Assembly (NCBI RefSeq): GCF_003987065.1
Contig: NZ_PIPY01000002.1
Coordinates: forward strand, 186,001-250,000
Direction: 5' to 3'
DNA length: 64,000 nucleotides
DNA from: Pseudidiomarina insulisalsae
GTDB taxonomy: Bacteria; Pseudomonadota; Gammaproteobacteria; Enterobacterales; Alteromonadaceae
Below are positions 1 through 10,829 of the stretch, piece after piece; position 1 is the stretch's first letter; every line of letters starts with the position of its first letter. Below the pieces are notes generated by a model. The model was given only the letters and a program-made list of their open reading frames with translations. It ran no database searches and had not been told where the DNA came from. The position numbers and the translations under genes are program-made.

Positions 1-2528
1 ACAGCAGGCGCAGGCTCTTGGTTTTCTGCCTCCACCGCTTCCCAACTTGGATATTTAGGATACTCGTTGTTCTCCTCAAGCGCTTTTTTCTCAGCTGCCT
101 GACGCTGCTCTTTACTGGTTAACAAGCTATCTTTTAGATAATAAGTGAGCGTGGCGCCATGAGCTGGGTTGTTAGCGATGAACGCATCATTACCATCAGT
201 ATCACTGTGGTTGCCATCAAGCTGGAACCACTTGACTGGGCGACTCGGCGCAAATAGCAATGCGTCTTCCTGCATGCTGCGCTCGGTCAAACCTCGCAGC
301 GGTGCATAGTCATCGAGTATGTAGATTCCGCGACCAAATGTTCCGGCCACTAAGTCGTTCTCACGACGCTGAATTTTCACGTCACGGGTAGAAATCGTTG
401 GAATCCCACCATCAAGTTCAACCCACTCTTTACCACCATCAACGGTAAAGAAGACGCCAAACTCGGTACCGATGAACATAAGGTTCTTGTTAACGTGATC
501 TTGTACAAAACGCCAAACAAGATGTTTTTCAGGTAAGTCACCGGCTAACGACGTCCAACTCCGACCTAAATTCGTCGACTTGATCAGGTAAGGTTTGTAA
601 TCACCGTATTTGTGGTTATCCAGTGCGACATAAACCGTATTGGCGTCAAAGAGGTCAGCGCGAATATCATTTACGTAGGCGGTTGCTGGCACACCTTGGA
701 TGTCATTTAGATCGATTTCTTTCCAGTTTTTACCACCATCAGTAGTAACTTGGATTAAACCGTCATCGGTCCCAGCCCAAAGAATATCTTCATCTACCGG
801 ACTCTCCGCAAAGTTGGCAATAGTGTGGTATTCCGACATGGCATAGAGATCCCATCCCGCTTCTACCGACCAAGTACGGCCCATCATGGGCATATGCATG
901 CGGTTGCCATCTTTGGTTAAATCACCAGATATCGGCGTCCAGCTATCACCCCGGTCATCTGAACGCCAGACACGTTGCGAGGCAAAGTAGATACGCTTCG
1001 GATCGTGGGCTGAGACGTTAATTGGGGCGTCCCAGTTAAAACGCTCTGCTGGATCGCCAGGTAAAGGTTGTGGCTTGATATAAACGCCTTCTTTGGTGGT
1101 CATATCAACTCGAGTTAGATTACCCTGCTGCCACTGAGAATAGACGATATCCGGATTGCCAGGCTCAACCGCTGGTTGGTGGCCATCGCCGCCCAGCGTT
1201 AAGAACCAATCCTTATTTTTGATTCCATCTTTACGAGCAGTACGCGATGGACCGCCCTGCGTGGAGTTATCTTGCGACCCGCCATAAACGTTATAAAACG
1301 GTTTCGAATCATCTGGCGCTACTTTATAGAACTGAGTGATCGGCAGATTCGCCATAAACCGCCAAGTTTCCATGCGGTCGTGCGACATATAGATACCGCC
1401 ATCAGACCCGATTAACACAAAGTCGGGGTCAGTGGGATGAAAGGCCATGGCGTGGTCATCGACATGCTTATGAGTGGTATCGATCGGCGTCCAGGTTTTG
1501 CCACCATCATCAGACACCTTGCTGTAATTACTTGCGATGTAGACCCGGTCGAATTGATGCTGATCGACAAAAATTTCCTGATAATAATGAGGTCCTGTTC
1601 CGCCACCGACTTCATCTGACATCTTCTTCCAGCTCGCGCCTTGATCTGCTGAACGATAGAAGCCGCCTTCACGGTTGTCGATTTCGACTGTGGCGTATAA
1701 AACATCAGGGTTCATAGGTGAGATGGCCATACCTATCTTACCCATATTACCGGTTGGCAAGCCGGTTTTTAATTCGGTCCAGGTATCACCGCCATCGTCT
1801 GAGGTATAGATGCCAGCGCCAGGTCCTGTGCCTACATACGCAGCCACCGTGCGCTGGCGCGACCACGTCGCCGCATACAGTTTATCTGGGTTCCGCGGGT
1901 CAATCAGTAGCGAGGTAACCCCCGTCCATTCATCCTCTGGGGTCAGGACTTGTTTCCAGCTCGTACCGCCATCGGTAGTTTTATATAAACCGCGTTCACC
2001 ACCCTTGGTCCATAAAGGACCTTGCGCAGAGACCCAGACAATATCAGGATTCGTTGGGTGAATGATGATGTCAGAAATATGCTCCGACTGCTCCAACCCC
2101 ATATTTTTCCACGTTTTACCGCCATCTAGCGATTTGTAGACGCCGTCGCCGAAGCTGATATGGCGACCACCGTTGTTTTCGCCAGTACCGACCCAAATGA
2201 TATTTGAGTTGCTTGGCGCAATGGTCACGTCACCGGTCGAGTAAACCGCTTGATTATCGAATATAGGGGTCCATGTAGTGCCCGCGTTAGTTGTTTTCCA
2301 CACACCACCAGAGCCGACGGCGGTGTACCAAGTCGATGGATTATTTTGGTCGACAGCAATATCTGCTATGCGCCCTGACATGTAGGCTGGGCCTATGCCT
2401 CGTAACGCCATGGTCTTGAAGGTATTGCTATTAAAGATACCCTCGTCGTTATCTGACTGATCCGCGAGAGCCGGCGCGCAAGAAAGCGCCATAGTGACAG
2501 CTACTGCAGCTTTTAGGATTGTTCTCAT
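1..2528 (-). CDS. Exported Asp-box/BNR (sortilin/VPS10-like) repeat protein, 3' end outside window
   Basis: The gene reads in from the left edge, and about 842 codons from the N terminus are visible. The start ATG at 2528 gives a Sec signal peptide (MRTILKAAVAVTMALSCAPALA, residues 1-22). Many Asp-box motifs of the S-x-D-x-G-x-x-W type follow, for example SLDGGKTW, TTDGGTSW, SDDGGDTW, SDDRGDSW and TVDGGKEW. These mark a beta-propeller of the BNR/VPS10 type, as in large periplasmic or secreted 'glycosyl hydrolase, BNR repeat' proteins of marine gammaproteobacteria. The family usually runs past 1000 residues, so the C terminus is missing here. The substrate is unknown; a glycosidase activity is only a database habit for this fold. 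The visible part ends in a charged, Ala/Glu-rich linker. Confidence 0.85.
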   Translation of the reverse strand, partial: MRTILKAAVAVTMALSCAPALADQSDNDEGIFNSNTFKTMALRGIGPAYMSGRIADIAVDQNNPSTWYTAVGSGGVWKTTNAGTTWTPIFDNQAVYSTGDVTIAPSNSNIIWVGTGENNGGRHISFGDGVYKSLDGGKTWKNMGLEQSEHISDIIIHPTNPDIVWVSAQGPLWTKGGERGLYKTTDGGTSWKQVLTPEDEWTGVTSLLIDPRNPDKLYAATWSRQRTVAAYVGTGPGAGIYTSDDGGDTWTELKTGLPTGNMGKIGMAISPMNPDVLYATVEIDNREGGFYRSADQGASWKKMSDEVGGGTGPHYYQEIFVDQHQFDRVYIASNYSKVSDDGGKTWTPIDTTHKHVDDHAMAFHPTDPDFVLIGSDGGIYMSHDRMETWRFMANLPITQFYKVAPDDSKPFYNVYGGSQDNSTQGGPSRTARKDGIKNKDWFLTLGGDGHQPAVEPGNPDIVYSQWQQGNLTRVDMTTKEGVYIKPQPLPGDPAERFNWDAPINVSAHDPKRIYFASQRVWRSDDRGDSWTPISGDLTKDGNRMHMPMMGRTWSVEAGWDLYAMSEYHTIANFAESPVDEDILWAGTDDGLIQVTTDGGKNWKEIDLNDIQGVPATAYVNDIRADLFDANTVYVALDNHKYGDYKPYLIKSTNLGRSWTSLAGDLPEKHLVWRFVQDHVNKNLMFIGTEFGVFFTVDGGKEWVELDGGIPTISTRDVKIQRRENDLVAGTFGRGIYILDDYAPLRGLTERSMQEDALLFAPSRPVKWFQLDGNHSDTDGNDAFIANNPAHGATLTYYLKDSLLTSKEQRQAAEKKALEENNEYPKYPSWEAVEAENQEPAPA

Positions 2529-2728
2529 TATTATTACCTAGGTTGAGGTCGTTAATTTGTCTAAACTATAGATTAGCGTGTCGCGATTCAATGGAATAAG
2601 CGACTAATGCACAAGTTTAGGAGGCCAATGCGGCCATAAACAACACAGGTAAAAAGCGATCAGATTCAAGCGCTTAATTGACCTTGGTGTCAGCTGAGCT
2701 ATGGCTTGATTTGCTGTCGAGCGGCACA

Positions 2729-2990
2729 GTGGTGCTTTTGCGTCACGTGTGGATGCGAACGCAAGCGCCCTTTCAAGACGTTAGTGCCAACGTCGGTCCG
2801 GATGCCCGCCCGCATCAAGCCGGCCGGCAGTCCTTTCACTGCCCACGGCTTTATAGCCACGAAAATGAAAAGCCAACTTCACTTGCCGCGTAACGCAACC
2901 CTGCCCATACAGAAGCCACAATGTAAGGAATACCGCCCAGCAGAACCAGATCATAAAGCCATGTAAGTAGGCGCAAACCATCGGGTAGCG
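2729..2990 (-). pseudogene. Condensed ghost copy of ctaG plus 2OG-oxygenase gene
   Basis: Five short blocks match, in the same order and strand, the intact ctaG and 2OG-oxygenase genes at 5449-6890. (A) 2941-2990 versus 6841-6890: 43 of 50 bases equal by eye, coding CtaG RYPMVCAYLHGFMIW. (B) 2899-2942 versus about 6532-6574: CtaG GGIPYIVASMWAG. (C) 2868-2898 versus 6305-6335: oxygenase LRYAASEVGF. (D) 2812-2868 versus 6130-6186: FRGYNAVGNEMTAG region. (E) 2742-2794 versus 5449-5501: oxygenase C terminus LKGRLRSHPHVT. About 1.45 kb is compressed into 0.26 kb by four internal deletions, and the blocks are in different frames. This is what remains of a duplicated locus, not a gene. Confidence 0.85.
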
Positions 2991-3080
2991 CTAAAAATAG
3001 CGGGTTCTCACTATCCCAACACAACCAAATAGCTAATGGCCCATCTCTAATTCAGGTATTTTTGAATCCCACCTATTGCA

Positions 3081-3099
3081 ATTACGAATGATTCGCATT
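3081..3099 (+). promoter_or_regulatory. Probable Fur box of the TonB receptor
   Basis: ATTACGAATGATTCGCATT agrees at 13 of 19 positions with a typical gammaproteobacterial Fur box (AATGATAATCATTCTCATT). It lies 100 bases before the receptor start. The right half ATTCGCATT is identical to the better site at 25872-25890, upstream of the second TonB receptor. Confidence 0.55.
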
Positions 3100-3198
3100 A
3101 ACCTTGCCGTGATTCGCTGACCCGTGGTCAACCGACTGACCCGGCCCTGCTCAAAAGTTTTTGAAATCTTTAAGATTAACTCAATTGGAGATCCTAAC

Positions 3199-5295
3199 GT
3201 GAAATTCAGACTTACAACGATCGCCGCTGCGATTTTACTAAGCCAAACAGCAACAGCGCAAAACAGTGAAGAAGTTGAACTAATCAAGGTAAAAGGCCAG
3301 CATTTGTCGGTTAGTGAGTCGAACTCAGTAAAAACGCCTACTCCAATTATTGATGTGCCACAAAGTTTGACAATTGTCACCGCTGAAGAGATTTCTGCGC
3401 GCGGTATCACAAGTATTGGTGAGATTATTGACTACACGCCCGGAGTGAACACAACTCAGGGCGAAGGCCATCGCGATGCAGTCGTCTTCCGCGGTGTTCG
3501 CTCGACAGCTGACTTCTACCTCGATGGTAACCGGGATGACGTGCAATACTATCGTGCGCTTTATAACATTGAACAAGTCGAAATTTTGCGTGGCCCTAAC
3601 GCTTTACTGTTCGGCCGTGGCGGCACCGGCGGCATTTTAAACCGAGTCTCAAAGAAAGCTGATATTGGCGGTGAATTTACCGACTATACGGCATCACTCA
3701 ATTCTTTCGGTGGCTTGTACACCGCCATCGATACTAATGTTACCGCAAGCCACAAATCTGCGGTTCGCATTAACGCCATGTATGAGCGCTTAGATAACCA
3801 CCGCGACTTTTACGACGGCGAACGCTACGGCTTTAACCCTACTGCACGGATTGAATTGACCGACGACACTACTTTGGATCTCTCTTATGAATACATAAAT
3901 CATGAGCGCTTCATTGACCGGGGTATTCCAACGGATGCCGATGGCCGACCAGTTGAAGCATTCGAAGATATCGTATTCGCCGATCCTCAGAACAACTATA
4001 GCGAAATTGAAGCTCATGTCTTCCGCGTGGCAGCAGAACATAAGTTCAGTGCAGCGGTAAAAGGTAACTTTAGTGCGTTTTACGGCGATTATGACAAAGT
4101 CTACTCAAACTTCTATGCCAGCGACTACGACCCTGCTAATGACCTTGTAGAGCTCGACGGTTATATTGATCATACGTTGCGCGATAACTTGATCCTCTCA
4201 GGTAACATTGTCGGAGAATTTGAAACCGGTAGTATTGGTCATACACTGATTGTCGGCACAGAGTTGATTTCTACGAATTCTGATCAAAACCGTTATAACC
4301 CAGTTTTTAGCACCAGTGGAGCTGATCGCGAACTCTTTACTGTGCAGCGCCCCATTCGCCTTAACGGTCTTTCTGGTGTGAATGCTAACGGCGAGAATTT
4401 CACTGTAAGCTTTAGCGACTTGAATGATGACACGCGCGTCAATTTAGAAGTCTTCTCGTTTTATGTACAAGATGAAATTGCGTTGTCAGAACACTTCGAT
4501 GTCGTGCTTGGTGCTCGTTTTGATCAGTTTGACATCGAAGTCTTTAACGCCGACCCCGCGGTATTAGAAACCCGCAGTCGCACCGATAACGAGATTTCCC
4601 CGCGCGCAGGTATCATCTACAAGCCGATGGAAAATATCTCGTTGTACGCAAGCTACAGCCGTTCATTTTTACCGCGCAGTGGCGAGCAATATGCAGATAT
4701 TAATGGAGCCAATGATAAGCTCGATCCAAACACATTCAGCAACCGTGAAATCGGTCTGAAATGGGACTTAGCTCCGCGCATGAGTTTCACCGCAGCGGTT
4801 TTTGAGAACGAACAAAGCTCGCCTCAGGTCGCGGATAACGACCCATCAACACTGGACGTCATCGACTCTGACATCAGCGGTTTCGAGCTTCAGTTTAAAG
4901 GTGAACTCACCCGCGATTGGCATTTCATGGCTAACTACAGCAATCTGGATGGTGAGATTGTGAGCCGGACAGGCCCTACTGGCCGCACTCCACGGGAATT
5001 ACCGGAGCAAACTTTCTCGGCCTGGAACACGTATCAGCTAAGCGATAACTTCGGGGTTGGGCTGGGTGTTACCTATCAAGATGAAAGCTTTATCAACAAC
5101 AGTAATACCGCTGTCTTGCCAAGTTATACACGCGTAGATGCATCTGCGTATTACGAGATTTCTGACACTATGCGAGTGCAGGTAAATATTGACAACCTGA
5201 CCAATGAGCTTTACTTCCCAAATGCTCATTCGACTCATCAGGTAACAGTGGGAGCACCACTTAATGCATCGGTGTCGTTAGTAGGAACGTTCTAA
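3199..5295 (+). CDS. TonB-dependent siderophore receptor
   Basis: This is an outer-membrane ferric-siderophore transporter of 698 residues. The reading frame opens at 3124, but GTG 3199 is the likely start: GGAG lies 8 bases before it and it gives a clean signal peptide (MKFRLTTIAAAILLSQTATA). A TonB-box-like stretch (EVELIKV) follows. The plug domain covers about residues 35-155 (IDVPQSLTIV, FRGVRSTADFYLDG, VEILRGPNALLFGRG). The C-terminal beta-barrel ends in the usual aromatic residue (VGTF). The barrel resembles catecholate/hydroxamate receptors of the FhuE/BfrD kind; the ligand cannot be told from sequence. A Fur-like site lies upstream and a strong terminator downstream. The convergent 2OG oxygenase next door suggests iron-linked function. 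Confidence 0.9.
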   Translation: MKFRLTTIAAAILLSQTATAQNSEEVELIKVKGQHLSVSESNSVKTPTPIIDVPQSLTIVTAEEISARGITSIGEIIDYTPGVNTTQGEGHRDAVVFRGVRSTADFYLDGNRDDVQYYRALYNIEQVEILRGPNALLFGRGGTGGILNRVSKKADIGGEFTDYTASLNSFGGLYTAIDTNVTASHKSAVRINAMYERLDNHRDFYDGERYGFNPTARIELTDDTTLDLSYEYINHERFIDRGIPTDADGRPVEAFEDIVFADPQNNYSEIEAHVFRVAAEHKFSAAVKGNFSAFYGDYDKVYSNFYASDYDPANDLVELDGYIDHTLRDNLILSGNIVGEFETGSIGHTLIVGTELISTNSDQNRYNPVFSTSGADRELFTVQRPIRLNGLSGVNANGENFTVSFSDLNDDTRVNLEVFSFYVQDEIALSEHFDVVLGARFDQFDIEVFNADPAVLETRSRTDNEISPRAGIIYKPMENISLYASYSRSFLPRSGEQYADINGANDKLDPNTFSNREIGLKWDLAPRMSFTAAVFENEQSSPQVADNDPSTLDVIDSDISGFELQFKGELTRDWHFMANYSNLDGEIVSRTGPTGRTPRELPEQTFSAWNTYQLSDNFGVGLGVTYQDESFINNSNTAVLPSYTRVDASAYYEISDTMRVQVNIDNLTNELYFPNAHSTHQVTVGAPLNASVSLVGTF

Positions 5296-5316
5296 TACGT
5301 TTAGCAGAAAAATGAG

Positions 5317-5350
5317 AAAGGCCGAGTCGGATAACGCCTCGGCCTTTTTT
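5317..5350 (+). terminator. Rho-independent terminator after TonB receptor gene
   Basis: Stem AAAGGCCGAG (5317-5326) pairs with CTCGGCCTTT (5338-5347), followed by T residues. It lies between the convergent receptor and oxygenase genes and acts mainly in the plus direction. Confidence 0.9.
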
Positions 5351-5351
5351 A

Positions 5352-6401
5352 TTAAACCCGACACTCATCACACATGTCTGCCGTTAACATGTGTGCGAAG
5401 TTTTTCGCTAACAGAGACCTTAACGAATTATCGCAGTAATGCTTCTTAGTTACATGCGGATGCGAGCGCAAGCGTCCCTTGAGTACATTGTTGCCAACAT
5501 CGTTTAGTAAAGGGTTATTGGGGTCAGTTGATGGTCCTGTTGCGCGCGCTTTCAGCTCTGGCGGCAAAGCCAATACCGGCACGGTTGCTGACAATTGGGC
5601 TGCCATGAAGAACGCAATCGAATAGCGTTCTATGCCATTTGTGGGGCTTTCCACTTTGTGGTTTGTGGCTTTTAACAAGCCGTTGGAGGCCAGCTCTAAC
5701 AGCTCACCAATGTTCACGACCAGTGCGCCCGGAATCGGCTCAACGTCCACCCACTCGCTACCACGCTCAACTTTAAGTCCGCTTTGTTGGTCCTGCATTA
5801 CCAAAGTGAGGTAGCCTGGGTCTTTATGCGCTCCGACGCCTTGCTGCACGGCATCTTGCGCGGGGTAACGGATGAGTTTGGCATGGGTATAAGGCTGCTC
5901 GCCAATAGTCGCATCAAGCGCATTGCGCTCAACACCCAAAGACTGACAGAGCTTCTGCAACAGAGTAACCGTTATGTCACTCAACTCGCGTTGCAAGGTC
6001 AAAAGAGCGGGCTTCAGGCTCGGCATCGCAGTCGGCCACAAATTTGGACCGATGAGTTTTTGCCAAGGCTGTTGCAGTTGTTCTGGAGCGAGCGAGAGTT
6101 CTTCATTCATCCAGTCAAATTGCTCGCGCGCATCAAGCAGGCCGGCAGTCATTTCATTGCCGACGGCGTTATAACCACGAAAATGAGGCGAATGACTCAT
6201 ATCCACTTCTTGCTTATCTTCAGCAGATAGCTGAAAGAAGTGCTTACTTAGGGCTAAATAATGTCGCTGCGCGTCGCTTTCTATGCCATGGTCGACAAGA
6301 TAGAAAAAGCCGACTTCACTTGCCGCATAACGCAACTGCGCTAGGCCTTCGTTGGTATTAAGCGATGTCATAGAAATGATCGGTAGTGTCGCAGCGTTCA
6401 T
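5352..6401 (-). CDS. 2OG-Fe(II) oxygenase, isopenicillin N synthase family
   Basis: This 349-residue protein has the N-terminal DIOX_N region (LRYAASEVGFFYLVDHG, residues 23-39) and a double-stranded beta-helix core. The iron triad is H192-x-D194 (GAHKDPGYLTL) and H248 (NHKV), with the 2-oxoglutarate-binding R259-x-S261 (RYSIAF). The family oxidises small molecules using Fe(II), O2 and 2-oxoglutarate; the substrate is not known. ATG 6401 is preceded by GGAG. It follows ctaG on the same strand (90-base gap) and converges on the TonB receptor. Pairing of such oxygenases with TonB receptors is common in Fur-controlled loci, so a role in siderophore or iron metabolism is a reasonable inference. 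A decayed partial copy lies at 2729-2990. Confidence 0.88.
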   Translation of the reverse strand: MNAATLPIISMTSLNTNEGLAQLRYAASEVGFFYLVDHGIESDAQRHYLALSKHFFQLSAEDKQEVDMSHSPHFRGYNAVGNEMTAGLLDAREQFDWMNEELSLAPEQLQQPWQKLIGPNLWPTAMPSLKPALLTLQRELSDITVTLLQKLCQSLGVERNALDATIGEQPYTHAKLIRYPAQDAVQQGVGAHKDPGYLTLVMQDQQSGLKVERGSEWVDVEPIPGALVVNIGELLELASNGLLKATNHKVESPTNGIERYSIAFFMAAQLSATVPVLALPPELKARATGPSTDPNNPLLNDVGNNVLKGRLRSHPHVTKKHYCDNSLRSLLAKNFAHMLTADMCDECRV

Positions 6402-6491
6402 AGGCGCTCCATAAATCGTATAACGAAGCTGACTATAAGTCGCTGCGTATAATTTATGAACGAACCAATCTGTCTAAGTTAGATTGTTTCG

Positions 6492-7295
6492 CTATAGCCA
6501 ACGCCGATTCAGATGCTTGTACCAACGGTTTCCGGCCCACATGGAAGCGACGATATAGGGAATACCACCCAGCACCCACATGATCAGGCCCGCAAGCTGC
6601 TGATCCTGCAAGTGACGGGCTTCGCCGTACAAAGGTTCACCGGCGAAGGTAAGCAGGGCGCCTAAAAAGCCGGTGTGCATCAAGGTGAAAAGCAGCGCCA
6701 GCAGCGCGAAGGGAACATTACGTGCGTTTGCGTGCAGCACCGCCCACCAGAACCAGACTGCAGTAATTAAGAAGCAGGCATGTTCGAACACATGCACCCA
6801 GGGGTCATCCACTGCCAGCATATAAAAGACTGGTACGTGCCAGAACCAGATCATAAAGCCATGCAAATAAGCGCAGAGCATGGGATAGCGGGTGATTTTG
6901 AACGCGTAACTCCAGAAACTGCGGCCGTAACGGCCAAACGCCACAAAAAGTTGTGGCAGCGGCTTACACAGCGCGAAAAATGGCGCGATGACCACCATCA
7001 TAAACATGTGCTGGGTCATATGCGCCGCGGCACTTGTTTCCGCCCATTCATCCAGCGGCCCTAAAATAGTAAAAAGGGTAATCACTGCGGTGCCATGAAA
7101 CAGCCAGCGCCGCCATACCCGGGTCGGGCTGCGCCTGGCGCCTATCACATACATCAGCCAGAAGGCCGCCACCACCAGCGCTGTGAGACCTGAAGCAAGC
7201 CTGTCCTGGCCATCACTGGTAATGGGGTTGTGCGCCTCAGCGGCAGCAGTCCAGAGTGCTGCCAGCAAAAGCCCCAGGACTTTCCACGCCCTCAC
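6492..7295 (-). CDS. ctaG: Cytochrome c oxidase assembly protein, caa3_CtaG family
   Basis: This polytopic inner-membrane protein (267 residues from GTG 7295) belongs to the caa3_CtaG family, which supports copper insertion or assembly of cytochrome c oxidase. His-rich segments typical of the family are visible: HMTQHMFMM, FKITRYPM, FEHACFLITAVWFWWAVL and FTLMHTGFLGALL. The frame is open from 7343, but GTG 7295 overlaps the coxA stop by four bases (GTGA), the classic sign of translational coupling, and gives a signal-anchor-like N terminus. It is the last gene of the coxB-coxAC-ctaG operon. It is unrelated to the Cox11-type protein that some annotations also call CtaG. Confidence 0.88.
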   Translation of the reverse strand: MRAWKVLGLLLAALWTAAAEAHNPITSDGQDRLASGLTALVVAAFWLMYVIGARRSPTRVWRRWLFHGTAVITLFTILGPLDEWAETSAAAHMTQHMFMMVVIAPFFALCKPLPQLFVAFGRYGRSFWSYAFKITRYPMLCAYLHGFMIWFWHVPVFYMLAVDDPWVHVFEHACFLITAVWFWWAVLHANARNVPFALLALLFTLMHTGFLGALLTFAGEPLYGEARHLQDQQLAGLIMWVLGGIPYIVASMWAGNRWYKHLNRRWL

Positions 7296-9793
7296 GCAAC
7301 GCCCCACGCCATGGGTAATAATAAGAACGAAGCTACGCTGCACCAGAATATGGCCAGACTAAACAGCCACAGAGGTTTTAATACTACCGGCTCATAAGGC
7401 AAACGTTCGCTGACATAACCATAGCGCACTCGTAATGCTTGCAGTGCAGTTGCGATCACGCTCAGACCGCTATGGAAAATAAGAAACGCGAGCATGACAA
7501 ATAGCACCGCATCGTGAGCCGTTTCGGTTACTTTCAGTGGCGAAGTAACGATGATTGCTATCAGCACCCCGAGGTGTATCGCACCGAGCAGCGTGACGAT
7601 CCAGAATTCCTCCTGCAGCCTGGCAACGTTACCTCGTTTTAGTTTTTTCACCGAGCCAGCAAACCACCAGGTTGCGCCCGTTAAGAAAAGTCCACTTAAC
7701 GCCATGGCAGGCAGTGAAATAACAAGTTCTTCCGGCAGCGTCCAATTGGGTGCTACCGCCCATAAGTACAGCCAACCAAATAACAGCGCCAGATAGAGCG
7801 CACCGTCTGCGAGCAAAGTAACCACCATGCCCCAAAGGCCAGAACCGTCCGTAGTGCGTGAATGCAACAGTGCCTCTTCGGGTTCTTTGTCACCTAGTGG
7901 GGCGGCTTTTGGGTGGCCGCCGTTTTCCCAGCTCCAGCGAAACAGCACAATCGCAGCCAAAACGGCCGCCACCACGGCTATCGAATAACTGCGTACCAGC
8001 AGGCTCACACACACCACTGCAAGGAAACTTGCGGCAATAAGCGGTAGCCATGAATTGGTCGGCAGCAACATCACTTCTTTTAGCTTGCCGGTCACAGGGT
8101 CACTACCAAAGGTTTCTCGCCTACCGTGCTCAATTTGCGTTAAGCCATGCTCCCCTGCGGGAATGGTTTTCATCAGCTCGGGCTGGTCCCACAGCGGGTG
8201 ACGGCTTTTAATTTCAGGTAAGCTGGCGAAATTATACATACGCGGCGGCATACCCGCGGCCCACTCCAATGTATCGGCGTTCCAGGGGTTGTCAGGCGCC
8301 TTACGGCCAAAACGAAAGTGCAGCACCACGTCAATAATAATAATCGCAACACCAGCAGCAATGATGAAACTTCCTACCGAAGAAAGCAGATTGAGGCCGT
8401 CCCAGCCGACACCCTCGCTAAAGGTATACACGCGCCGCGGCATACCTAGCAGCCCAGTCAGATGCATCAGGAAAAACGTGGCGTTAAACCCAATGAAGAC
8501 CAGCCAGAAACCCCAGCGGCCCAGACGCTCTGAGGACATACGCCCGGAAATAAGGGGCAACCAGTAATACAAGCCGCCAATGAGCGGAAATAACATACCG
8601 CCAATCAACACATAATGCAGATGAGCCACCACAAAGTGAGTGTCATGGACCTGCCAGTTAAACGGCACCAACGCCAGCATTACGCCAGTCAAACCGCCCA
8701 GGACGAAGACAAACAGAAAGCCAAACACCCATAACATTGGCAGACTGAATACGACGCGCCCGACCCATAAAGTGGCCAGCCAGGCAAACACCTGAATGGC
8801 GGTGGGAATAGCCACCAACATACTTGCCAGCGAGAAGAACGCCTGCGCCATGCCTGGAATACCGACGGTAAACATGTGGTGCGCCCAGAGTCCAAAGCTA
8901 ATGAAGCCGGTCAGAATCACTGCCATCACAATCCATCGGTAGCCGACAATCGGGCGGCCGGTAAACACCGGCAGCAGCGTCGAGACAATGCCCGCTGCGG
9001 GCAGAAATATAATGTACACTTCGGGGTGCCCGAACAGCCAGAACAAGTGTTGCCATAAAATCGGATCGCCACCAGCGGCCACGTCAAAAAACGGCATGCC
9101 GGCAGCACGTTCCAGTTCCAGTAAAATACTACCCAGAATAAGCGGCGGAAAGCCGAACACGATCATGAATGCGGTAACCAGAATATACCAACACAGAATG
9201 GGCATTTTGCTGAGTGTCATTCCCGGAGTACGCGATCGTAATATGGCCACCACCAGCTCGATGCCCGCTGAAACCGACGATATTTCCACGAAGGTAATAC
9301 CCAGCAGCCAGAAGTCAGAGCCTGGCCCCGGTGAATAATCAGCGCTGCTTAGCGGGGTATACATGAACCAGCCGGCACTCGGCGCTATTCCCATAAACAG
9401 ACTTGAAAGTACGATAATGCCGCCAAAAAGATAGCAGTAGTAACCGAAGGCACTGAGGCGCGGGAAAATCAGATCCCGCGCGCCAATCATTTTAGGAATC
9501 AGATAGACAGCCGCGCCTTCCAGAATAGGGATGGCGAACAGGAACATCATCACCGTGCCATGCATGGTAAATACCTGACTATATAAATCAGGATTTAAGA
9601 TTTCTTGGTCCGGTAGCGCTAACTGCGTACGAATAAGAAGCGCCAGCAACCCGCCTATCAAGAAGAAAATAGCGCCGGTCACCATAAACCGGCGCCCTAC
9701 CGTCGTATGATTTACTGCCGCCAAAGTGCCCCAGCCTGGCAGATTCGACCAGACCTTCATAAAGCGCTGATGTAATGTCTGCGATTCAGTCAT
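7292..9793 (-). CDS. Cytochrome c oxidase subunit I-III fusion
   Basis: This 833-residue terminal oxidase core joins subunit I (about 1-560) to a subunit III-like C-terminal region (roughly 620-833, starting near SRTTDGSGLWGM). Subunit I has the low-spin haem ligand H78 (FTMHGT), CuB ligands H256, H305 and H306 (GHPEVY, WAHHMF), the cross-linking Y260, and haem ligands H391/H393 (VAHLHYV). E258 in the GHPEVY motif places it with A1-type haem-copper oxidases. The frame is open to 9850, but ATG 9793 (MTESQTLH) overlaps the coxB stop by eight bases and is the likely start. Together with CoxB it reduces O2 and pumps protons across the inner membrane. Confidence 0.93.
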   Translation of the reverse strand: MTESQTLHQRFMKVWSNLPGWGTLAAVNHTTVGRRFMVTGAIFFLIGGLLALLIRTQLALPDQEILNPDLYSQVFTMHGTVMMFLFAIPILEGAAVYLIPKMIGARDLIFPRLSAFGYYCYLFGGIIVLSSLFMGIAPSAGWFMYTPLSSADYSPGPGSDFWLLGITFVEISSVSAGIELVVAILRSRTPGMTLSKMPILCWYILVTAFMIVFGFPPLILGSILLELERAAGMPFFDVAAGGDPILWQHLFWLFGHPEVYIIFLPAAGIVSTLLPVFTGRPIVGYRWIVMAVILTGFISFGLWAHHMFTVGIPGMAQAFFSLASMLVAIPTAIQVFAWLATLWVGRVVFSLPMLWVFGFLFVFVLGGLTGVMLALVPFNWQVHDTHFVVAHLHYVLIGGMLFPLIGGLYYWLPLISGRMSSERLGRWGFWLVFIGFNATFFLMHLTGLLGMPRRVYTFSEGVGWDGLNLLSSVGSFIIAAGVAIIIIDVVLHFRFGRKAPDNPWNADTLEWAAGMPPRMYNFASLPEIKSRHPLWDQPELMKTIPAGEHGLTQIEHGRRETFGSDPVTGKLKEVMLLPTNSWLPLIAASFLAVVCVSLLVRSYSIAVVAAVLAAIVLFRWSWENGGHPKAAPLGDKEPEEALLHSRTTDGSGLWGMVVTLLADGALYLALLFGWLYLWAVAPNWTLPEELVISLPAMALSGLFLTGATWWFAGSVKKLKRGNVARLQEEFWIVTLLGAIHLGVLIAIIVTSPLKVTETAHDAVLFVMLAFLIFHSGLSVIATALQALRVRYGYVSERLPYEPVVLKPLWLFSLAIFWCSVASFLLLPMAWGVA

Positions 9794-10496
9794 TATTTTG
9801 CCCGCCCTCCTTTTGCAGCCATTGTTCAAAGTCTTCAGCGCTATGCGCAATGACTTTGAACTGCATTATGGTATGCCCTTGCCCGCAGTATTCGGTGCAT
9901 AGCCCCCGGTACTCACCCGCTTCGTCGGCCTCAAGCCTCAATACGTTGGTATGCCCGGGAATCGCGTCGATCTTGCCGCCCAGCCGAGGCAACCAGAACG
10001 AGTGAATGACATCCTGACTGGTAATATGGAAATCAATGGGTGTGTTAATTGGAATATGAATTTCATCGACCAGTTGAATGCTGGTATCGGGGTAAGAAAT
10101 ACGCCAAAACCACTGATAGGCTTTCACGTCGACTCTCATTGCTTCGCCTTCATCAAGAGGCAAAGGTAACATCTTATGGCCCACCGGGGCGCCAAACAAG
10201 AGCAGCAGCGCCAGAGCTACCGTGGGTAGTACAATTCCACCGCCAATGATCCATTTATTCTGCAGCCGCTGCGCGTCTTCATCACTCAGGTCTTGCCGGT
10301 TACGGCGTATTGCATACAACCAAAGCAGAATAAGTCCGAAGAAAATTGCCAGAGCGACGCTGACCATGGTCCAGGTTAGCGGCAGAACCGAACGCGCTGC
10401 GGGCCCGGCAGGGTCGAGCGTTGAAAATGGACCGCTGCAACCGCTTATCAGCAACGAGGTGGCAGCGACTGTTACTCCTGCTATTCTAATTCTCAT
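9786..10496 (-). CDS. coxB: Cytochrome c oxidase subunit II
   Basis: The protein has 236 residues from ATG 10496, which has GGGA six bases before it; an in-frame TTG at 10508 is less likely. The N terminus is a lipoprotein signal with lipobox LISGC (C20), followed by two membrane helices (about 40-63 and 83-102) and a periplasmic cupredoxin domain. The binuclear CuA centre is complete: H165, C200, E202, C204, H208 and M211 (CTEYCGQGHTIM). This makes the enzyme a cytochrome c oxidase and not a quinol oxidase. There is no fused cytochrome c domain, unlike caa3 subunit II. First gene of the oxidase operon. A TATACT -10-like hexamer lies at 10569-10574 on this strand. Confidence 0.93.
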   Translation of the reverse strand: MRIRIAGVTVAATSLLISGCSGPFSTLDPAGPAARSVLPLTWTMVSVALAIFFGLILLWLYAIRRNRQDLSDEDAQRLQNKWIIGGGIVLPTVALALLLLFGAPVGHKMLPLPLDEGEAMRVDVKAYQWFWRISYPDTSIQLVDEIHIPINTPIDFHITSQDVIHSFWLPRLGGKIDAIPGHTNVLRLEADEAGEYRGLCTEYCGQGHTIMQFKVIAHSAEDFEQWLQKEGGQNND

Positions 10497-10829
10497 AACA
10501 TGTCCCAATCTGAACAGAAGGATAGATTTGCGCTATGCCCACTGCGAAAATTGAAAGTCGCGCAGCCCAGTATAAAACCGCTATGATATGAAGCATTAAC
10601 AACCATATCACGTCCGACTACTCCTTTCGCTTGAGCCCTTGTTATCGTTTTTTCTTATGATGACGCAGCGAATTGACATTGCACAAGCCAGTAATCAGCT
10701 TTGCAGGCAGAGCCTATTTTTGCAAGGTAACGCTCTGGTTTATCGTTTATTTTTTTGACTTTATATATCATTATCCATCTTCATCACCTCGTGCTAGAGT
10801 GTAAATATTCCAACTTCTGGGGGGGCAAA
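10497..10829. other. Divergent spacer between coxB and the PAS-GGDEF gene
   Basis: These 333 bases carry no gene I can support. For coxB a TATACT -10-like hexamer sits at 10569-10574 (minus). For the GGDEF gene an extended -10 (TGCTAGAGT, 10792-10800) sits about 30 bases before the ATG. The middle part (about 10600-10740) shows nothing recognisable. Confidence 0.5.

Follow-up and report, generated by a model that had tools for sequence, protein, structure and literature searches.

A deletion-condensed relic of a second oxygenase-ctaG gene pair in Pseudidiomarina insulisalsae, possibly left by allele displacement between species

Failed horizontal transfer has been described as a source of prokaryotic pseudogenes (Liu et al. 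2004, PMC522871). In the effector-immunity arrays of the Vibrio cholerae type VI secretion system (T6SS), displaced resident genes are found beside newly acquired modules, an arrangement that was explained as perhaps akin to the product of homology-facilitated illegitimate recombination (PMC5361080). In Salmonella, deletions account for most of the loss of pseudogenes, which gather few substitutions meanwhile (Kuo and Ochman 2010, PMC2916853). The present study deals with a window of 64,000 nucleotides from Pseudidiomarina insulisalsae (contig NZ_PIPY01000002.1, positions 186,001 to 250,000), in which the condensed remnant of a second gene pair, encoding a 2-oxoglutarate-Fe(II) (2OG-Fe(II)) oxygenase and the caa3 assembly factor CtaG, lies upstream of a TonB-dependent receptor gene, while the intact pair follows behind that gene. 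The titles and abstract openings of the literature on homology-facilitated illegitimate recombination, deletional bias, xenologous pseudogenes and Pseudidiomarina in combination with horizontal gene transfer contained no description of this locus.

A sensitive local alignment of positions 2529-3198 with positions 5300-7400 revealed five collinear blocks on the same strand, through which 2727-2990 matches 5434-6890 (Table 1). A preliminary description of the window had already pointed to five such blocks, all of which were found in the order it gave. Its count of 43 identical bases out of 50 for the block within ctaG is exact, while two of the oxygenase blocks are longer than it had noted (69 and 66 bases instead of 53 and 57). 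Chaining of the blocks gave a local score of 134.6 for the relic against the intact locus, compared to a mean of 45.7 (standard deviation 4.6) and a maximum of 62.5 in 300 dinucleotide-preserving shuffles, so that similarity by chance was rejected by this control. Long protein matches are kept in the translations of the blocks, e.g. the identical LRYAASEVGF or RYPMVCAYLHGFMIWF compared to RYPMLCAYLHGFMIWF. Block order, strand and a score far above that of the shuffled sequences thus confirm the initial observation, and 2727-2990 is a deletion-condensed relic of a second oxygenase-ctaG pair.

Table 1 Coordinates of the relic blocks, the intact genes and the adjoining features (positions within the window)
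Feature	Position	Strand	Remarks
Relic block 1	2727-2795	-	3' end of the oxygenase gene; 74% to 5434-5502; translation of relic DVGTNVLKGRLRSHPHVTQKHH, of intact copy DVGNNVLKGRLRSHPHVTKKHY
Relic block 2	2803-2868	-	Oxygenase interior; 88% to 6121-6186
Relic block 3	2868-2899	-	N-terminal part of the oxygenase; 94% to 6305-6336; LRYAASEVGF identical
Relic block 4	2900-2942	-	C-terminal part of ctaG; 79% to 6532-6574; relic LGGIPYIVASVWA, intact copy LGGIPYIVASMWA
Relic block 5	2941-2990	-	ctaG interior; 86% (43/50) to 6841-6890; relic RYPMVCAYLHGFMIWF, intact copy RYPMLCAYLHGFMIWF
Possible sixth ctaG block, weak	2987-3002	-	14/16 bases shared with the own ctaG near 6968-6983
VPS10/sortilin-like gene, cut by the window start	1-2528	-	Within a 6-kb block, 87-93% DNA identity with G007 and G018
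Upstream flank of the VPS10 gene	2529-2677		In P. aquimaris (G016), directly joined to an intact oxygenase gene
TonB-dependent receptor gene, between relic and intact copy	3199-5295	+	Pfam Plug, TonB_dep_Rec_b-barrel
Intact 2OG-Fe(II) oxygenase gene	5352-6401	-	Pfam DIOX_N, 2OG-FeII_Oxy
Intact ctaG, caa3 assembly factor	6492-7343	-	Pfam Caa3_CtaG; present in 3/26 genus genomes

The relic represents a dead frame, as the list of open reading frames contains no minus-strand frame of at least 80 amino acids across 2727-2990; on the plus strand, a TTG frame of 86 amino acids (2706-2966) runs antisense to the blocks. For the candidate sixth block, the score against the own ctaG was reached in none of 60 mononucleotide shuffles. 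It found no support from the ctaG genes of G005 and G006, the best scores of which were reached in 22 and 45 of 60 shuffles, respectively. Within the own genome (2.56 Mb) the blocks matched the intact locus and the relic itself, the exception being a single 35-base match on contig 16 (E 4.7e-4). This match was dismissed as chance, since it sits within an ordinary coding frame of 195 amino acids, which we take to be plsY-like. When positions 5300-10600 were used as query, no remnant of the oxidase cluster other than the relic was found in the own genome; the same search also gave one 96-base match of 71% at C12:82274-82369.

As had been estimated before (about 1.45 kb collapsed into 0.26 kb), a span of 1457 bp (5434-6890) is condensed to 264 bp, i.e. 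about 18% is left and about 80% is lost. The stretches missing relative to the intact copy are 5503-6120, 6187-6304, 6337-6531 and 6575-6840, which correspond to four internal deletions and sum up to about 1.2 kb. By our reading of the alignment, the deletion joints show overlaps of 0, 1 and 2 nucleotides, and one joint contains a 7-nucleotide filler. The third deletion would be larger if the parental locus had harboured a gene or an island between oxygenase and ctaG, as is the case in P. terrestris, where the two genes are 10 kb apart.

The distribution of differences over codon positions was used for reconstructing the history of the two copies. Relic and intact copy differ at 44 of 257 aligned sites, and 33 of the 44 differences are located at third codon positions, which account for only 84 of the 257 sites. 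For comparison, a duplicate evolving neutrally from the start was simulated beside a constrained intact copy, applying relative rates of our own choice that were meant to mimic the pattern between species. The third-position share had a mean of 0.42 and 0.45 in the two settings (20,000 draws each), and no draw reached 0.75 or more. The aligned part of the oxygenase comprises 166 sites (55 third-position and 111 non-third), and ctaG contributes 62 non-third sites. At the oxygenase third positions the distance between relic and intact copy is 19/55, while the intact copy differs from ten other same-genus orthologues at 21-34 of the 55 sites. Third-position excess and a distance close to that between species argue that the copies diverged as functional genes. 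Most of the difference apparently arose while both copies were working genes, one of which died late.

Comparison with 15 orthologues of other species allowed us to assign the 28 oxygenase differences: both states occur among the orthologues in 18 cases, 3 changes are restricted to the intact copy and 7 to the relic. The latter split 2:3:2 over codon positions 1:2:3, which would fit relaxed constraint and late neutral decay, but third-position changes are under-counted because the 15 orthologues already vary widely at these sites. Outside third positions the relic-only changes comprise 5 of 111 oxygenase sites and at most 2 ambiguous changes among the 62 ctaG sites, that is 5-7 in about 173. 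Neutral change since the death of the relic amounts to roughly 3-4%, in which time about 80% of the span disappeared; deletion clearly outpaced substitution. Placing the relic by its nearest species was also tried and failed: with respect to block 1, 9 of the 15 orthologues are closer to the relic than the intact copy is, while blocks 2 and 3 favour the intact copy.

Both ends of the relic were inspected. Positions 2540-2614 and 2641-2677 match positions 4272-4339 (80%) and 4337-4373 (86%) of the P. aquimaris locus L044, in which the oxygenase frame extends over 4370-5419 on the minus strand. Beyond the oxygenase gene, as seen from the flank, lies a gene whose product has oxidoreductase domains binding FAD and NAD. 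Since the relic continues a flank that meets the oxygenase gene in P. aquimaris, its left junction is common to another species. On the other side the ctaG remnant stops at 2990, and similarity to the DNA upstream of the receptor gene starts near 3060. The position of this gene between relic and intact copy agrees with the preliminary description. Homologues of the receptor at the level of at least 84% were restricted to G010 and G025, two of the 25 genomes compared, and to the own genome, where a second copy (C15:144134-146227) shows 81% DNA identity to the receptor gene of the window. None of the ten other genus genomes carrying the oxygenase has two close copies of it, and each of them has one.

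On the basis of the third-position excess, the near species-level distance, the 18 oxygenase differences with both states among the orthologues, the junction shared with P. aquimaris, the second receptor copy and the single-copy state of the relatives, we prefer an explanation by transfer. It is also supported by a neighbourhood that takes up foreign DNA, as seen from the VPS10 gene and from 13 kb unmatched in P. terrestris (see below). Horizontal transfer, in one direction or the other, probably brought alleles of two Pseudidiomarina lineages together in one chromosome, and the redundant pair was shredded. A transfer between species is more likely to be the origin of the relic than a recent local duplication. 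As to the direction, we tentatively favour the relic as the displaced resident pair and the intact pair as the incoming one, because a single event would then provide receptor, oxygenase and ctaG with their diverged second copies. The two pairs would first have evolved separately and in functional form, each in a Pseudidiomarina lineage of its own, with the resident pair located beside the VPS10 gene, like the oxygenase next to VPS10 flank DNA in P. aquimaris. The incoming fragment would have carried the TonB receptor gene together with oxygenase and ctaG. One of its ends may have joined illegitimately within the resident ctaG, somewhere from 2990 to about 3060, and homology in ctaG or the oxidase genes further right may have guided the other end, as in homology-facilitated illegitimate recombination. 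The resident pair, now redundant, would have been erased through at least four internal deletions.

Several observations weigh against a meeting of alleles by transfer. P. aquimaris, which shares the left junction, lacks both the VPS10 gene and ctaG. In G007 and G018 a reductase gene adjoins the VPS10 flank, and an oxygenase gene is absent between the two. A VPS10-oxygenase-ctaG arrangement or a directly joined TonB-oxygenase-ctaG arrangement, as expected for a donor, is present in no examined genome. At third positions the relic is nearest to the intact copy (19/55 versus at least 23/55 for the others), as an old duplication within the genome would likewise predict. The intact copy is also the sequence nearest to relic blocks 2-5, for blocks 4 and 5 by one base only, and in the orthologue comparison no sampled species was clearly closer to the relic or to the intact copy. 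All of this is based on a comparison of 257 aligned sites only.

The transfer explanation also comprises the opposite direction, according to which the relic pair arrived together with a transferred VPS10 block and failed, while the intact pair is resident. Taken alone this is somewhat unlikely, though nearly as likely as the direction we favour. It is supported by the VPS10 block, which was recently shared with G018 and G007. This 6-kb block (C12:182696-188655, window positions 1-2655 included) consists of a gene for 177 amino acids, a receptor-like gene for 649 amino acids and the VPS10-like gene. The VPS10 gene is present in 3 of 26 genus genomes, and its DNA identity is 91% to G018 and 88% to G007, compared to 77% for an 8-kb chromosomal comparison region. 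Furthermore, P. terrestris shows synteny with oxygenase-ctaG-cox and with both sides of the stretch (C12:163001-178255 and 191352-202254). The opposite direction nevertheless requires a donor with ctaG beside VPS10-oxygenase as well as illegitimate joints on both sides, and synteny is blind to which of two adjacent copies is the resident one. Indeed, we first took the synteny with P. terrestris as a sign that the intact copy is resident and then dropped this argument. Between the two syntenic stretches the window genome harbours 13 kb with no match of at least 150 bases to P. terrestris, and both copies lie inside this same gap, so that synteny cannot tell the directions of transfer apart.

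An old tandem duplication, after which both copies remained functional under selection in one lineage for a long time until one of them died recently, is unlikely. It fits the codon-position pattern equally and would account for the intact copy being nearest to the relic by third positions. Nevertheless, two close copies are lacking in all ten of the other oxygenase-bearing genomes mentioned above, and such a duplication alone leaves the second copy of the TonB receptor gene and the P. aquimaris junction unexplained. In addition, direct repeats of such size around 2 kb would be expected to recombine away.

The preliminary description had proposed that the intact oxygenase-ctaG locus was duplicated in tandem, perhaps together with the receptor gene, and that neutral decay through deletions set in immediately. 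Its view of an oxygenase-ctaG relic shrunk by internal deletions holds, while its view of the duplication has to be considered very improbable. Identical order and strand, direct repeats around the receptor gene and the proximity of the intact copy to blocks 2-5 are in line with it. On the other hand, the third-position share of 33/44 was unreached in the simulations, the few differences expected of a young duplicate, with no third-position excess except that added by the intact branch, contrast with a distance near species level, and the oxygenase junction at the left flank is one that also occurs in P. aquimaris. Chance similarity, or a patchwork of short pieces copied by template switching, which the short joint overlaps and the filler might suggest, is hardly credible, because the five blocks keep order, strand and coding pattern, the shuffle scores are far lower, and species-level differences are unexpected if the neighbouring locus had been the template.

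Some features of the intact pair, which adjoins the gene for oxidase subunit I, were recorded in addition. The DNA homology of the oxygenase stops at 6495-6503 in all 15 orthologue comparisons and starts at 5351-5354, at the stop codon, in 7 of 10 same-genus comparisons. By our reading, the gene occurs in about seven different neighbour arrangements across 10 mapped genus loci. From these comparisons, the oxygenase gene and its promoter seem to be mobile as one small unit. With P. terrestris and G006, ctaG shares homology from 6502 onwards, and the end of the oxygenase unit lies near 6498; according to this, the final codons and the stop codon of ctaG (6492-6502) seemingly derive from the edge of the oxygenase unit. 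In three more distant homologues of the oxygenase, those of G009, G013 and G004 (55-56% identity), the matching region is interrupted by one or two stop codons.

The 6-kb VPS10 block adjoins the reductase gene in G018 and G007, and in the own genome the reductase gene is located about 60 kb away, without the block. To the left of the block, at L112 15587-19399 (corresponding to C12:178587-182399), lies a pair of genes which we assume, from their translations, to be hipB/hipA-like. The hipA-like gene is apparently split by a two-gene element recognized in the same way as presumably istA/istB-like, and the DNA of the hipB/hipA-like pair is 92-93% identical to G006. The whole neighbourhood looks like one that accumulates foreign DNA. 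Upstream of the TonB receptor gene, GAATGATTCGCATTA (3074-3102) is identical in the window gene and three close homologues; we presume a resemblance to a Fur box.

Unannotated intergenic DNA can thus keep a legible trace of what was probably a transfer between species, and such a trace is easily mistaken for a tandem duplication. With the intact pair and many orthologues available, the life as a gene and the decay as a relic can be dated separately, at least roughly. The relic might therefore be regarded, with due caution, as a fossil of interspecies allele displacement that can be dated, with a long life as a gene, a short death and deletions ahead of substitutions. If this is true, redundant transferred gene pairs can be rapidly shredded by several separate small deletions and not lost in one step; that deletions dominate the erosion of bacterial pseudogenes is already known in general.

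Compared to the known systems, the locus resembles the pseudogenes of Liu et al. (2004, PMC522871) in that a gene remnant accompanies a working relative in the same genome and transfer is the likely source. Unlike in those cases, two genes are affected here, 1.46 kb have been reduced to about 18%, the intact pair is only 2.4 kb away, and the time as a gene and the time as a relic are partly separable. As in the T6SS arrays of V. cholerae (PMC5361080), an incoming module would lie beside the leftovers of an older allele, and one homologous and one illegitimate joint are proposed. Whole orphan immunity genes are kept in these arrays, whereas the old pair of P. insulisalsae is defunct and largely deleted, and toxin-immunity logic plays no part in it. 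Like the Salmonella pseudogenes (Kuo and Ochman 2010, PMC2916853), the relic was lost mainly by deletion with few substitutions; in comparison to them, it has lost about 80% of its span and is still recognisable.
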